Made by a program: the position numbers and the translations under genes. A DNA stretch of 64,000 nucleotides from Herbaspirillum sp. (GTDB lineage Bacteria; Pseudomonadota; Gammaproteobacteria; Burkholderiales; Burkholderiaceae_D), in the NCBI RefSeq assembly GCF_017744395.1, contig NZ_JAGIBI010000001.1, positions 1,178,001 to 1,242,000 of the forward strand. The letters are read 5' to 3'. This document shows positions 11,683 through 16,483 of this stretch, in pieces. Each line of letters begins with the position of its first letter. Within the stretch, counting starts at the first letter, position 1. Under the pieces are notes generated by a model. That model was not told the origin of the DNA. It made no database searches and saw nothing but the letters and a program-made list of their open reading frames with translations.

Positions 11683-11826
11683 GTCTTCCTCCGTGGATGT
11701 CTGCTTCGAATGGGGGTAATTGCGGCTGCGGCAATTACGCTAAGATCGCTATCTTGCCGCATCATTGTGCCTCGCTGCGCAGCCCGCGAGGCACCGTCAA
11801 ATTATTTTCATCTCGACCGAAATACC

Positions 11827-12372
11827 ATGCCGACCAGGAAGCCCGTACGCCAGACGCCAGCATTCACCGCCGCCGACCCGCTGCTGGCCAGCTTCCCGCC
11901 AGTAGTGGCGCGCGATACGCGTACGCTGATTTTAGGAAGTTTGCCGGGAGTAGCTTCGCTGGCGGCCAGCCAGTATTACGGGCATCCGCGCAATGCGTTC
12001 TGGAAGTTGGTAGGTGATTCAATTGGGGTTGAACTCGCTGGATTGGACTACCCAACGCGATTATCACGCTTACTCGAACATCACATTGGATTGTGGGACG
12101 TCATTGCCACTGCACGGAGGACTGGCAGTCTTGACAGTGAAATTCGAGAGCATACACAGAACGATCTGCTCGACTTGATCGGTTCTTTGCCTGAATTGAA
12201 TACGATAGCATTCAATGGTGGTGCGGCGGCCAAGATTGGACTTAAGACTTTGGGAATGAGGGCTAACGACCATCGGATTTTACTTCTGCCGTCGAGCAGT
12301 CCTGCGCATGCATCACTGTCTTATGCGCAAAAACTGGTCACCTGGAATCAACTAACGGAATCAGGCATATAA
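11827..12372 (+). CDS. DNA-deoxyinosine glycosylase (UDG family 6, mug-like)
   Basis: A 181-residue member of the uracil/hypoxanthine-DNA glycosylase superfamily. Motif 1 is TLILGSLPGVASLAASQYY (about residues 33-51), followed by GHPRNAFW; the C-terminal motif is PSSSPAHASLSYAQK. These define family 6 hypoxanthine-DNA glycosylases, which remove deaminated adenine. The first ~100 nt have host-like high GC, then composition falls sharply from about 11,930 on. It may be a mosaic formed when the downstream island recombined into a resident gene. Five nt separate it from the next glycosylase-like gene. Confidence 0.85.
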   Translation: MPTRKPVRQTPAFTAADPLLASFPPVVARDTRTLILGSLPGVASLAASQYYGHPRNAFWKLVGDSIGVELAGLDYPTRLSRLLEHHIGLWDVIATARRTGSLDSEIREHTQNDLLDLIGSLPELNTIAFNGGAAAKIGLKTLGMRANDHRILLLPSSSPAHASLSYAQKLVTWNQLTESGI

Positions 12373-12377
12373 CTATC

Positions 12378-13001
12378 ATGGACGTACCATCGAAAAACAC
12401 ATCCAGATCACTGCTTAACCACGACATACTGGACGCCCGTCGAAGTCTATTGGCCGCACCTCATATGATTGAGCTGACTAACTACGTGAAACGGTTAAGG
12501 GAAAAATTCGGCGCTCCCTGGGAGTTTCCCGATTTTGATCCTTTAGATGGTGGGCGTGACGCGGAACTCTTGTTCTTGATGGAAAAGCCCGGTCCAATGA
12601 CCTCGACCAAGGGAGAAAAAGGATCAGGCTTGATCTCCAGAGATAACAACGACCCGACTGCAGAAGCTATTTTCGATTTTATGAATCAAGCGCGGATTCC
12701 ACGAGAACGGACCGCACTTTGGAACACGATTCCGGGTTGGAACGGCAAGATTAAAATCGGCAAAGGAGAACGGCAACAAGGAATCGAGGAACTCCCCCAC
12801 TTGATCGCCCTGCTACCTAAAGTCAAAGGCGTCGTTCTGGTAGGTCGGCAAGCTCAGCGAGCGCAATCAGTCATTACTGCTTCGAACTTAATGGTCTTTA
12901 CTTCCTACCATCCCTCCCCCAAGGTCAGATCAATTAACCCACATTTATGGAACGCTATACCCGATCGTTGGGCTTCTGCATTTCGAGCAATCCAAGCTTA
13001 A
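12378..13001 (+). CDS. uracil-DNA glycosylase superfamily protein
   Basis: A 207-residue protein with UDG-superfamily features: an N-terminal motif LLFLMEKPGPMTS (about residues 69-81) in the position of the catalytic water-activating loop, an RTALWNTIPGWNG segment, a VVLVGRQAQ strand and a C-terminal HPSPKVR motif corresponding to the DNA-intercalation loop. This is a divergent branch usually annotated only as uracil-DNA glycosylase family. It starts 5 nt after the deoxyinosine glycosylase gene and is likely co-transcribed. Low GC compared with the host. It could process deaminated or modified bases, possibly phage DNA; that is speculation. Confidence 0.75.
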   Translation: MDVPSKNTSRSLLNHDILDARRSLLAAPHMIELTNYVKRLREKFGAPWEFPDFDPLDGGRDAELLFLMEKPGPMTSTKGEKGSGLISRDNNDPTAEAIFDFMNQARIPRERTALWNTIPGWNGKIKIGKGERQQGIEELPHLIALLPKVKGVVLVGRQAQRAQSVITASNLMVFTSYHPSPKVRSINPHLWNAIPDRWASAFRAIQA

Positions 13002-13154
13002 GGCGGTATGCTGAATTCGCGCCCATAGACTAAGTGTCAAATTAAGCAGGACATCAATTCACTCAAAAGACAGCAACAGCGTTGCATACGAATGACGAAC
13101 CATTGTCACATGATGTATTTGCCTACTAACTCAATAAAACACTTCACATAAAAC

Positions 13155-13793
13155 ATGGATGATTCTGACAGCCTCCGGAATGACGTAACGGCCTTTGAAC
13201 CAGATCCACGTATGCAGCACCAGTCGCTGCCAAACCGTAGTCAGTTAATCAATTCGTTCGTCCTAACCTCCTCCACCCCGCCGTCGGTTCAGATTCACTT
13301 TGAAACTGCAAAGAATCTTTATTTGTATGCTTGGTTTGTGTATCGCTTTCACATGGTTGCCGAGCAATATGTGTTTTCCACTCTTGAGCTGGCATTACGT
13401 GAACGCCTAATTGAAATAGGACTAGTCAGTAGCGATAGATTGCCTGGCTTAAGTGGAATGCTTAAGCTTGCACGCTCAAAAGACCTGATCAGCAATGAGC
13501 GACTTGTCCATCGTAACGATTGGACAATACGAATGGCCCAAAAACGATATAAAAATGAAGAGATGCGTCGGATGATCGAGGACGGGATTTTCCAGCTCGC
13601 GATTGACGAGAGCTTGGCAGTGCCAACAGCAGAGGAATCAAGCTTTGACTGGATTAACCACTTTATCCAGCATGTTCCAGTGCAGCGCAATTCACACGCC
13701 CATGGCACAACTTCGCTTTACCCAAATGTTTTATGGACATTTGAGATAGTGGCTGAATTGATTAACCAGCTATTTTCGGCACACAAAGAATAA
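13155..13793 (+). CDS. HEPN-like protein of unknown function
   Basis: A 212-residue, mostly helical protein I do not recognise by name. The first half has long amphipathic helices (NLYLYAWFVYRFHMVAEQYV, ELALRERL), and residues 178-183 read RNSHAH, a fit to the RNxxxH (R-X4-H) catalytic motif of HEPN ribonucleases; it is followed by a predicted helix, as in HEPN domains. HEPN proteins occur as RNA-cleaving toxins and defence effectors. It lies alone between a glycosylase-like gene and a glycosylase pseudogene in the low-GC island, with 153 nt of AT-rich DNA upstream. No antitoxin-like partner is adjacent. Confidence 0.6.
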   Translation: MDDSDSLRNDVTAFEPDPRMQHQSLPNRSQLINSFVLTSSTPPSVQIHFETAKNLYLYAWFVYRFHMVAEQYVFSTLELALRERLIEIGLVSSDRLPGLSGMLKLARSKDLISNERLVHRNDWTIRMAQKRYKNEEMRRMIEDGIFQLAIDESLAVPTAEESSFDWINHFIQHVPVQRNSHAHGTTSLYPNVLWTFEIVAELINQLFSAHKE

Positions 13794-13871
13794 CGCCGCT
13801 TGATTGTTGATTTTCTTGTCAAGGCCCAACGCAGATCGACAGGCTTACTATTCCCCAACTAGTCTCCCAAA

Positions 13872-14293
13872 GTGTCCCTGCCCAAGCCACCTCATCTGGT
13901 GCCCCGGAGGTGTCAAATTGACCAAAACATCAATGCGTTTTGGAGGATCGTTGGTAATGTAATTGGTGTTGGATTGGTGAATTTAAGCTACGAGGCACGG
14001 TTGCCCGCATTACTGGAACATCGTATAGGGCTATATGATGTCATCGCCAACGCTCGTCGCATTGGTAGCTTAGATAGCAGCATCAGAGATCATACGTACA
14101 ATGACTTAGTAGCACTGCTTGATACTTTGCGAGAACTAGCGACCATTGTTTTCAATGGTGGGACTACTGCAAAGACCGGTATCAAAGCATTGGGGGGCAG
14201 CAAGCACCGAAATATCAAATTCTGCGTTTCCCATCTAGTAGTCCAGCACATGCGACTCTTTACTACGTGCAGAAACTCCAACTATGGCAATAA
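13872..14293 (+). pseudogene. decayed second DNA-deoxyinosine glycosylase
   Basis: From about 13,924 the frame matches the intact gene at 11827-12372: NINAFWRIVGNVIGV, LEHRIGLYDVIANARRIGSL and IVFNGGTTAKTGIKALG. The frame then breaks at or near a run of six G (14192-14197). The continuation RFPSSSPAHATLYYVQKL appears in another frame and stops at 14291-14293, matching PSSSPAHASLSYAQKL of the intact copy. The N-terminal GSLPG motif is not recognisable in frame. The two copies are clearly diverged, so this is not a recent duplication. The open frame itself continues to 14390 without family similarity. Confidence 0.75.
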
Positions 14294-14423
14294 CTTGCCA
14301 GAAAAAATCGTGCTGAATGTTGCAACATGCCATGTTAGAGTTCAAAAATCTGTTTCTGATAGTAGTGTGAGCAGCAATAAACTCCCTTAAGCAAATCACC
14401 GATGTCAACTAACAAGGATCAAA

Positions 14424-15485
14424 ATGGCGATTTTGACTCTCTACAATCATAAAGGTGGGGTTTCTAAGACCACGACTACCTTCAATCTTGCACATTTACT
14501 AGTTGCTCGTGGAAAAAAAGTATTACTGGTAGATGCTGATTCTCAGTGCAATTTAACCGAGCTCTGTCTCGGTAGAGTCATAGAAGAATTAGACGTTGTT
14601 GCCGAGAAGACGGGAATTATTCAAGAGTTACCTGGAACAAATATTCTTGATGTTCTCAAGCCTCGTATTGAAGGTGAAGTCCCAACTATCAATATTGATG
14701 CGATAGAAACAGTAAACTTAATTCCTGGGCTTGATTTGATCCGCGGAAGCGTTGATCTAAACTCCATTGAAGATGATATTGCTGAAGCACATATCAATCG
14801 ATTTTCTGCGCGTACAAATCTTATGCGCACATATGTCGCTGTTGGCGACATGCTTGTACGCATCGCGGAAGCACGAAAGTACGACTATATTTTTATTGAC
14901 TTAGGCCCTAGTGCCGGAGCATTAACACGTTCTTTCTTTCTTGCTTGTGACGCATTCTTTGTTCCCGTTGCTCCTGATCGCTTCAACGTTCAGGCAATTC
15001 GGACCTTATCCATGATTTTAAATCGATGGATAGAAGAGCACTCTCAGATCCGCGAAACGTACTCGAGCTACTCTCTTCCAGTGCGTCATGGACTGCCAAT
15101 TTTCTGCGGCGCAATCTCTCAGTTTTTCAAGGTTTATAAAGGCAAACCCAAAGCAGGATTCGAAGTTTGGATGAAACGGATTCCAGAGCAAATAACCACA
15201 TTTCTCACCCCAATTCTTCAGAAGCATTCGGATGCGCAAAGAAATCTGTTCCCTTTAGGCTCCGATGATCTTATTGCGGCTCAAATTCCTGATTTCGGTA
15301 CGCTGGCTCCCTTAATGCAAGAAGTAGGGAAAGCAGTCTTCAACATAACGCAAACAGATACAGCTCTTGTAACAGAATCCGGAATTGCTTGGGCTGGAGG
15401 AACGTGGTCAGATGCAGAAAAGCGTATGACTATATACCGAGCATGTTTTGATCAGTTGGCGGATCGCATCGCCGTTGCGGGGTGA
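14424..15485 (+). CDS. ParA/MinD-type deviant Walker A ATPase
   Basis: A 353-residue P-loop ATPase. The deviant Walker A is NHKGGVSKTTTTFNLAH, with signature Lys10 and P-loop Lys15 and a Ser in place of the usual Gly at residue 14. The A' motif is LLVDADSQCNL and the Walker B strand YIFIDLGPSAGA (about 155-166). It is longer than plasmid ParA proteins, with an extra region around residues 200-290. No parB or replication gene follows; instead the next gene, overlapping by 4 nt, encodes a cyclase-like protein. The pair probably works together, perhaps in defence or signalling. Codon use is AT-rich relative to the window. Confidence 0.8.
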   Translation: MAILTLYNHKGGVSKTTTTFNLAHLLVARGKKVLLVDADSQCNLTELCLGRVIEELDVVAEKTGIIQELPGTNILDVLKPRIEGEVPTINIDAIETVNLIPGLDLIRGSVDLNSIEDDIAEAHINRFSARTNLMRTYVAVGDMLVRIAEARKYDYIFIDLGPSAGALTRSFFLACDAFFVPVAPDRFNVQAIRTLSMILNRWIEEHSQIRETYSSYSLPVRHGLPIFCGAISQFFKVYKGKPKAGFEVWMKRIPEQITTFLTPILQKHSDAQRNLFPLGSDDLIAAQIPDFGTLAPLMQEVGKAVFNITQTDTALVTESGIAWAGGTWSDAEKRMTIYRACFDQLADRIAVAG

Positions 15486-16165
15486 AAGGGATGACGCTTC
15501 AGCTTTCTAGCCATTTTGTTGCTTTCATTGATATTCTTGGCTTCTCGGAAATGGTACGCGCCGACTGTGAATCTGTACAAGAACCACGATTCTTAGAACT
15601 TTTACACAATGCGCACTTACGAGCGACAGCAATTTTCGGTCGAGATTTAGATGCAGGACTTATCCAATTTTCTGACTCAATAGTTTTGAGTCGGCCATTT
15701 CAGCTAGATGCGCTTCCACTTTTCATTGAATCAATTGCCACTTGGCAGCGTAGCCTTCTTCTCGACGGTCTAATTTGCCGTGGCGGCGTAACTTTTGGAA
15801 AACACTTCGTTAAAGATCGTTTCCTTTTCAGTAAAGGGCTAATCGACGCATATCATCTTGAAAGTACTCAAGCTAAATACCCTCGCATAGTTGTTTCTAA
15901 GAATTTGCTTGAGCTCGCAGCCCCCATTGTCGATGTTCAAAACTTGCTATTGATTAAAGAGGAAGATGGCATCACATTCATTGACTACTTGGTTATTGAT
16001 GGTGATGACGAAAAACGAGACACTCTTTCGACTGCTACCCAGACCGTTATTGAATCAGCACCACATGGAAATGCATCCGTACAAGAAAAAATGCGCTGGC
16101 TGGCTCGATACGCAGACCATAAGCTTGGTACAAATTTATCAGGACCAAGATTCGCAATACTATGA
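15482..16165 (+). CDS. class III nucleotidyl cyclase-like protein
   Basis: A 227-residue protein with features of the class III cyclase fold: FVAFIDILGFSEMV (about residues 12-25, Asp17 in the first metal position), IQFSDSIVLS (Asp65, second metal position) and RGGVTFG (100-106) in the position of the later core strand. It lacks other recognisable domains, signal peptide or membrane segments. The start is GTG at 15482, overlapping the ParA stop (GTGA); an ATG at 15491 is the alternative. Overlap implies coupled expression with the ParA-type ATPase. Whether it makes a cyclic nucleotide is not shown; residues for base recognition are not obvious. Confidence 0.65.
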   Translation: MKGMTLQLSSHFVAFIDILGFSEMVRADCESVQEPRFLELLHNAHLRATAIFGRDLDAGLIQFSDSIVLSRPFQLDALPLFIESIATWQRSLLLDGLICRGGVTFGKHFVKDRFLFSKGLIDAYHLESTQAKYPRIVVSKNLLELAAPIVDVQNLLLIKEEDGITFIDYLVIDGDDEKRDTLSTATQTVIESAPHGNASVQEKMRWLARYADHKLGTNLSGPRFAIL

Positions 16166-16342
16166 TTCTCACGTTCGAGGCTTCCTTTTCATTTTAAAAG
16201 ACATCGGAATGGCTATCTCAAACTTTAGTACTGTCATCGAACAGTAAGGCCTTTTCTTACTCCAAGTACCAGCAACTTGGGGCGCTTAATAAAACTAGCA
16301 GTGAAAAAGTACCGGACCAAAGCAATATCTTCTATCTGTCCA

Positions 16343-16483
16343 CTACTTCCGAAAGAACACATAATCAAAGAATTCGCCCGAAAAACCGCCATTGAAAATA
16401 AGGTACTGCACCGCCTTGCCAAAGAAGACGATGCCGGCAAAAACAATGGCCAGCCTGAGGCAAAAGAGAAGATATTTGAGCAT
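16343..16483 (-). CDS. possible small membrane protein (46 aa)
   Basis: A short reading frame beginning MLKYLLFCLRLAIVFAGIVF and ending DYVFFRK. One long hydrophobic stretch (residues 4-21) and a positively charged C-terminus suggest a single-pass membrane peptide. It lies just beyond the metQ terminator on the same strand. There is no convincing Shine-Dalgarno sequence, so it may be fortuitous. I do not recognise a family. Confidence 0.3.
   Translation of the reverse strand: MLKYLLFCLRLAIVFAGIVFFGKAVQYLIFNGGFSGEFFDYVFFRK

Follow-up and report, generated by a model that had tools for sequence, protein, structure and literature searches.

What a ParA-type ATPase does beside a partner other than ParB is the question raised by two adjoining genes in the window, the whole stretch of 64,000 nucleotides of Herbaspirillum sp. 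DNA that was analysed. The first gene (14424..15485, forward strand, ATG start) encodes a long ParA/Soj-type (SIMIBI) ATPase of 353 aa, here the proposed hub protein. Its identity as a ParA is secure from sequence comparison, with matches to Pfam AAA_31 (E 2e-27) and to phrog_164, 'ParA-like partition protein' (4e-41). The translation carries the deviant Walker A motif KGGVSKTT at residues 10-17 (14451..14474, forward strand), of which K10, G11, G12, V13, K15, T16 and T17 were invariant in alignment A5 (n=10, including the window protein), and the C-terminal part is common to the long ParA family. PADLOC gave no good model match for this ParA, the alignment of about 22 bits covering the P-loop only. 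The second gene (15482..16165, forward strand, GTG start) encodes a protein of 227 aa, the proposed effector, which we call B. Both ORFs share GTGA at 15482..15485, the ParA stop overlapping the B start by 4 nt, and a later ATG at 15491 offers an alternative start for B. Six proteins of the window were scanned with Pfam, namely ParA, B and those of four ORFs upstream, and none is a ParB; a plain ParABS system was rejected on this ground. A sequence-only reading of the locus, which had described a deviant Walker A ATPase overlapping its neighbour by 4 nt and having no ParB partner, was thus borne out.

The two genes lie in a low-GC insert (12011..16400, ends approximate), in which GC per 200 bases is 0.39-0.51 against 0.625 for the window. 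Besides ParA and B, the insert contains a UDG-like gene, an uncharacterised ORF and mug-like sequence twice over, as the 3' part of a gene and as a relic. Within 1.5 kb on each side, ParA and B were absent from all 29 same-genus metQ-like loci, and this absence, taken with the low GC, makes it very likely that the module came in on a mobile insert. A mug-like gene was found within 1.5 kb of metQ in 15 of these 29 loci, lying close in, for example, L193, L196, L206 and L208. The alignment of the mug-like relic (13872-14390) starts at the very NAFW codon where the first copy (11797-12372) turns low-GC, and the two copies look like tandem insertions that replaced the 3' part of the gene; no integrase was noticed at the mug-like copies in the window. 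The window also contains a 212-aa ORF (13155-13793) with RNSHAH, an Rx4H, HEPN-like motif, and no Pfam match above chance.

At E up to 1, B itself matched nothing in Pfam (PF00211 included), NCBIfam or PADLOC. It belongs to phrog_23933 (4e-47; phrog_21097 matched at 4e-7), a family without known function that was matched by all 17 members of alignment A4 besides B. Structure prediction of 15482-16165 against class III cyclases, which the sequence-only reading had set beforehand as its refuting test, matched the cyclase fold, and the model gives B good support for the fold of the class III nucleotidyl cyclase catalytic domain. The hhalign controls against B (HEPN, SIR2, RelA, AlbA and ParA) gave probabilities of at most 0.4% each; a non-cyclase fold was ruled out by the structure comparison and these controls. 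Three matches at E up to 0.001 were returned by a BFVD search, all with TM-scores below 0.5. When the PDB was searched by sequence with a profile of B, 13 matches came back at E 0.28-2.3, none significant, of which 12 were cyclases and the best, CapG (E 0.28), a non-cyclase.

Two aspartates and an RGGVTFG motif, which had suggested a cyclase core at the outset, were found as described. The metal-type aspartates D17 (in FIDILGF, 15530..15532) and D65 (in FSDS, 15674..15676) align in hhalign with the metal-binding aspartates of cyclases, and R100 of RGGVTFG (residues 100-106; codon 15779..15781) aligns to the arginine of the cyclase RxGIxTG; all three were invariant in 30/30 B-family sequences, as was E127 (15860..15862), all four codons being on the forward strand. 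E127 stands in a modelled helix (118-130) that aligns to the cyclase helix bearing the catalytic Asn and Arg. Thus B has in common with class III nucleotidyl cyclases (PF00211; Rv1625c, Ma1120, soluble guanylate cyclase) the predicted fold, the two metal aspartates and the arginine of RxGxxxG, but differs from them in lacking the substrate Lys/Asp, the transition-state Asn/Arg and a Pfam match, and in the extra C-terminal helices of its model (176-215). The site of the base-specifying Lys is I61 (Lys in 5/30 B-family sequences) and that of the base-specifying Asp is F114 (Asp in none of the residues listed, 28 of 30), while the transition-state Asn and Arg sites are I121 and H125, with Asn and Arg in 2/30 sequences each. 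The proposal of a class III cyclase core therefore stood for the fold and the metal aspartates and fell short for the substrate and transition-state residues, and since the canonical residues are absent, B may be inactive.

The pair recurs well beyond the window. Among B loci with a tblastn identity of at least 41% (window included), 9/9 had ParA alongside, against none of eight inspected loci at 25-31% identity (L120, L121, L124, L125 and L127-L130), a comparison by which chance adjacency of the two genes was rejected. In L002-L004, the loci inspected among those from related genomes, ParA was not beside B. Species genomes, given as 84,980 in number, were scanned with two B proteins as queries, and nine loci were found. 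Seven of these, at 41-62% identity, all had ParA directly upstream: Thauera (L114), a Rheinheimera MAG (L115), P. aeruginosa PA7 (L116), Aquabacterium (L117), a Pseudomonadaceae MAG (L118), Buttiauxella (L119) and Comamonas (L122). The other two, L120 and L121, had B at 28-29% and no upstream ParA. An IMG/VR scan with the window B found one relative, 42% identical, on viral contig L017, where the gene of a 374-aa ParA runs 4 nt into B; viral B relatives at 25-31% (L124, L125 and L127-L130 inspected) had no adjacent ParA, and inspected distant members of phrog_23933 are likewise without one. ParA-led searches added two further divergent pairs, L132 and L159, the latter with a B 21% identical to that of the window.

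Other searches gave less. A B relative was present in 7/100 related genomes, the close one being the window's own only. Twenty plasmid records matched B, all below 60% identity, and none of the nine opened had an annotated ParA directly adjoining. Viral scans with distant B proteins (n=2) recovered the query contigs and the equivalent of the L126 contig only; E. coli genomes searched with the L119 pair DNA and phage records searched with the window and L116 B proteins gave no match. Over the 11 pairs, ParA and B distances were correlated at r=0.97, with 0/5000 permutations as high. The ParA-B spacing was -3 in four of the 11 loci and -72 to +37 in the other seven (first start codon taken). That the two genes form a unit, as had been supposed from the overlap, was supported by the adjacency in the close loci and by the co-divergence, and the survey across genomes, the other refuting test set by the sequence-only reading, came out in favour of a conserved association, with the divergent pairs L132 and L159 besides the close ones.

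The main context, which lay beyond the earlier reading, is a wider ParA family: the B-paired ParAs make up a single branch of it, and in the remaining branches the partners are HEPN, SIR2, RelA/SpoT or Schlafen/AlbA_2 proteins. ParA relatives were sought in genomes at three taxonomic levels. The C-terminal region as query gave matches in 50/399 genomes from the order (many short and weak), and a 20-row profile gave them in 19/369 from the class and 35/398 from the phylum. A viral ParA scan gave 66 loci, with the partner read in L018 only and five others serving as outgroups. From all sources, 81 distinct long-ParA loci remained after 10 duplicate loci had been dropped, and in 69/81 the long ParA adjoins an enzyme gene: 38 have an SLFN_AlbA_2-type gene on the upstream side, 11 have B downstream, nine have HEPN, six SIR2 and five RelA_SpoT. 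As eight of the 11 ParA-B loci (L017, L114-L119 and L122) came from B searches, this tally is no frequency estimate. The remaining 12/81 had no assigned partner, several being fragments.

Partner labels are single-linkage blastp clusters of which few members were scanned with Pfam. Among those sampled, HEPN partners matched HEPN_RiboL-PSP at 8e-14 (L018) and 2e-5, below its cut-off (L085), a RelA partner matched RelA_SpoT at 2e-18 (L087), a SIR2 partner matched SIR2_2 at 7e-25 (L109), and two AlbA partners matched SLFN_AlbA_2 at 9e-11 and 1e-15 with HATPase_c_4 (L093 and L096). Spacing was exactly -3 in 32/38 AlbA loci, and the other four kinds of partner lay within 13 nt of the ParA stop in 27/31 loci. 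Partner motifs were kept in HEPN (Rx4H, 9/9), RelA (E[VI]QVR, 5/5) and SIR2 (K.HG, 6/6). The patterns GAG.S, D..G[VI]R and E.D..E[RK] were not found in 4/6 SIR2, 4/5 RelA and 15/38 AlbA partners, respectively, and many of these are truncated at the locus edge. The SLFN_AlbA_2-type gene, the commonest partner, overlaps ParA (L093, L096 and 36 further loci), and the C-terminal part of the L093 protein, the only one so scanned, weakly matches pAgo-associated PNTD models. In three of the five RelA-type loci (L153, L155 and L186) a further gene, encoding 183-201 aa and common to all three (cluster 6), lies upstream; these are perhaps a three-gene variant.

A ParA tree of 78 rows was built from 73 long ParAs (eight below 300 aa having been dropped) and five outgroups; it is drawn with a midpoint root, has long branches at L159, L183, L136 and L021, and its outgroup joins may be false. 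ParAs paired with B (support 100/99), HEPN (100/99) and SIR2 (100/100) each formed a single-partner clade, the five RelA rows formed one clade with one unpartnered row (100/99), and 36 AlbA rows one with five unpartnered rows (100/99). The B-paired and HEPN-paired clades were sisters (98/91). Partner labels changed 11 times on this tree compared with 39.8 in shuffles, and such partner-pure clades imply that each ParA type keeps its own type of partner. Correlation of ParA and partner distances was r=0.85 for HEPN (1/5000 permutations as high), r=0.96 for SIR2 (210/5000, five loci) and r=0.91 for RelA (40/5000, five loci).

HEPN RNases, SIR2 NADases and toxic small alarmone synthetases are growth-stopping effectors, Schlafen-type RNases less so. 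As the partners in the other ParA branches belong to growth-stopping families, B would, by position, be the effector of its own branch. ParA would be the controller, as Anantharaman et al. 2013 (PMC3710099) proposed for ParA/Soj with HEPN. The ParA-B pair and the ParA relatives beside toxic-enzyme types together suggest an interchangeable suicide-type defence module. On balance we lean towards a mobile two-gene ParA-effector module, in which ParA would restrain B until a trigger and B would then stop growth. Coupled translation would yield both proteins at once, and they probably bind one another, ParA keeping B inactive as long as the cell is at rest. A trigger, for example infection by a phage or the loss of the module, could alter the nucleotide-bound or DNA-bound state of ParA and so release B, which would bind an NTP through two metals (D17 and D65) and R100 and carry out a nucleotide-consuming or nucleotide-making reaction, whereupon growth would stop. 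The pair may have an anti-phage function, as the sequence-only reading had thought plausible. A bolder version, possible and held tentatively, is an undescribed immune architecture in which one ParA family controls five interchangeable effectors, B being an enzyme of cyclase fold whose catalytic residues (D17, D65, R100, E127 and K203) form a new set and which either stops growth directly or makes a new nucleotide product.

We regard the locus as a real, conserved, mobile two-gene module and a newly recognised variant of the ParA-effector dyad put forward in 2013. In PMC3710099, ParA/Soj with HEPN (MAE_18760) was read as a toxin-antitoxin, likewise of two genes, a ParA/Soj ATPase and a small enzyme. 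In contrast, the window partner has a predicted cyclase fold rather than HEPN, the HEPN-paired ParAs forming the sister clade. The ParA-HEPN loci found here are likely the 2013 dyad, although the family named in that paper is MAE_18760 whereas the members scanned here matched HEPN_RiboL-PSP best. A 2020 paper (PMC7159879) places MinD/ParA domains in other conflict systems. Within the literature searched, from which subscription papers were mostly missing, we found no ParA with a cyclase-fold partner and no ParA family of the window type with SIR2, RelA or AlbA_2, and no follow-up to the 2013 proposal for ParA beyond partition. The partners of the other ParA clades are of the same domain types as toxSAS, SIR2 NADase and Schlafen-type effectors, and the SIR2 partner in L109 is similar to the ThsA and Dsr2 models. 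To our knowledge, no described toxSAS, SIR2 NADase or Schlafen-type system has a ParA of this family. A role of ParA outside partition, proposed for one partner in 2013, now has a testable family, and the same regulator beside five partner enzymes allows one to ask what the ParA ATPase senses and how its effector is restrained. Similarly, phrog_23933, an unassigned phage-protein family, gains a predicted fold and invariant residues to mutate.

The roles could also be reversed, with B a degenerate cyclase that only binds nucleotide as sensor or antitoxin, and ParA the effector. The loss of the substrate and transition-state residues would fit this, and a possible parallel is GiPD474, a single prophage ParA/AAA_31-like protein that confers phage resistance in Salmonella (PMC12724215). 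However, both metal aspartates and R100 are kept in 30/30 sequences, and in the other clades it is the partner, not ParA, that is an enzyme of known toxic type; we consider such a reversal unlikely.

Signalling of the Pycsar kind, in which B would make a cyclic nucleotide for a receptor elsewhere in the genome and ParA would regulate it, agrees with the cyclase fold, and PycC enzymes likewise have unusual base-specifying residues (PMC11224242). Against it, B lacks the transition-state Asn/Arg and any PADLOC match, and the L132 B had none at E up to 1e-5, leaving the PycC models unmatched. Pycsar pairs PycC with a cyclic-pyrimidine effector, whereas the ParA-B pairs have no recurring effector gene alongside and ParA is the partner instead; the likeness in using a cyclase fold for defence is no more than an analogy. 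No receptor gene was common to the pair neighbours compared. In the search for a Pycsar-type effector next door (cNMP-binding with TM or TIR), the genes recurring beside the pairs were two common to L116 and L118, and 25 of the 50 Pfam families of the neighbours were listed. Signalling of this kind is quite improbable. A positioning or partition system of a mobile element, with ParA moving B or DNA, would suit the identity of ParA and the mobile context and is very doubtful, given that the partner is not ParB, the window insert is chromosomal and ParA relatives pair with toxin-type enzymes.

Returning to the ParA-effector module, the neighbours compared shared further genes clearly only in L116 and L118, two related Pseudomonas loci, so no third component recurs, and a recurring third gene was ruled out by this comparison. 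Both loci adjoin phage-type genes (phrog_4352 in both, and a phrog_1144 ssDNA-binding protein in L116) that we read as of filamentous-phage type. In both, an Mrr_cat gene stands directly upstream of ParA (L116:3708-4598 and L118:3933-4841), beside the phage-type genes. The neighbours of eight pair loci, 54 proteins (6/55 neighbour ORFs left out and five of L017 added), fell into 50 Pfam families; the 25 listed were mostly unrelated to defence, the restriction-type ones being Mrr_cat and NA-iREase1 only, in the same two proteins. PADLOC returned 233 families from 136 neighbours of 16 test regions against 62 from 136 of 145 control neighbours (15/16 regions, L282 dropped and L270 giving one ORF), a weak comparison in that families are not genes, one protein matches many models and 25 families were listed each time. 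By annotation, a solo B relative on a plasmid adjoins Dsr1 in L012, and another lies close to AbiEii and AAA/UvrD genes in L013.
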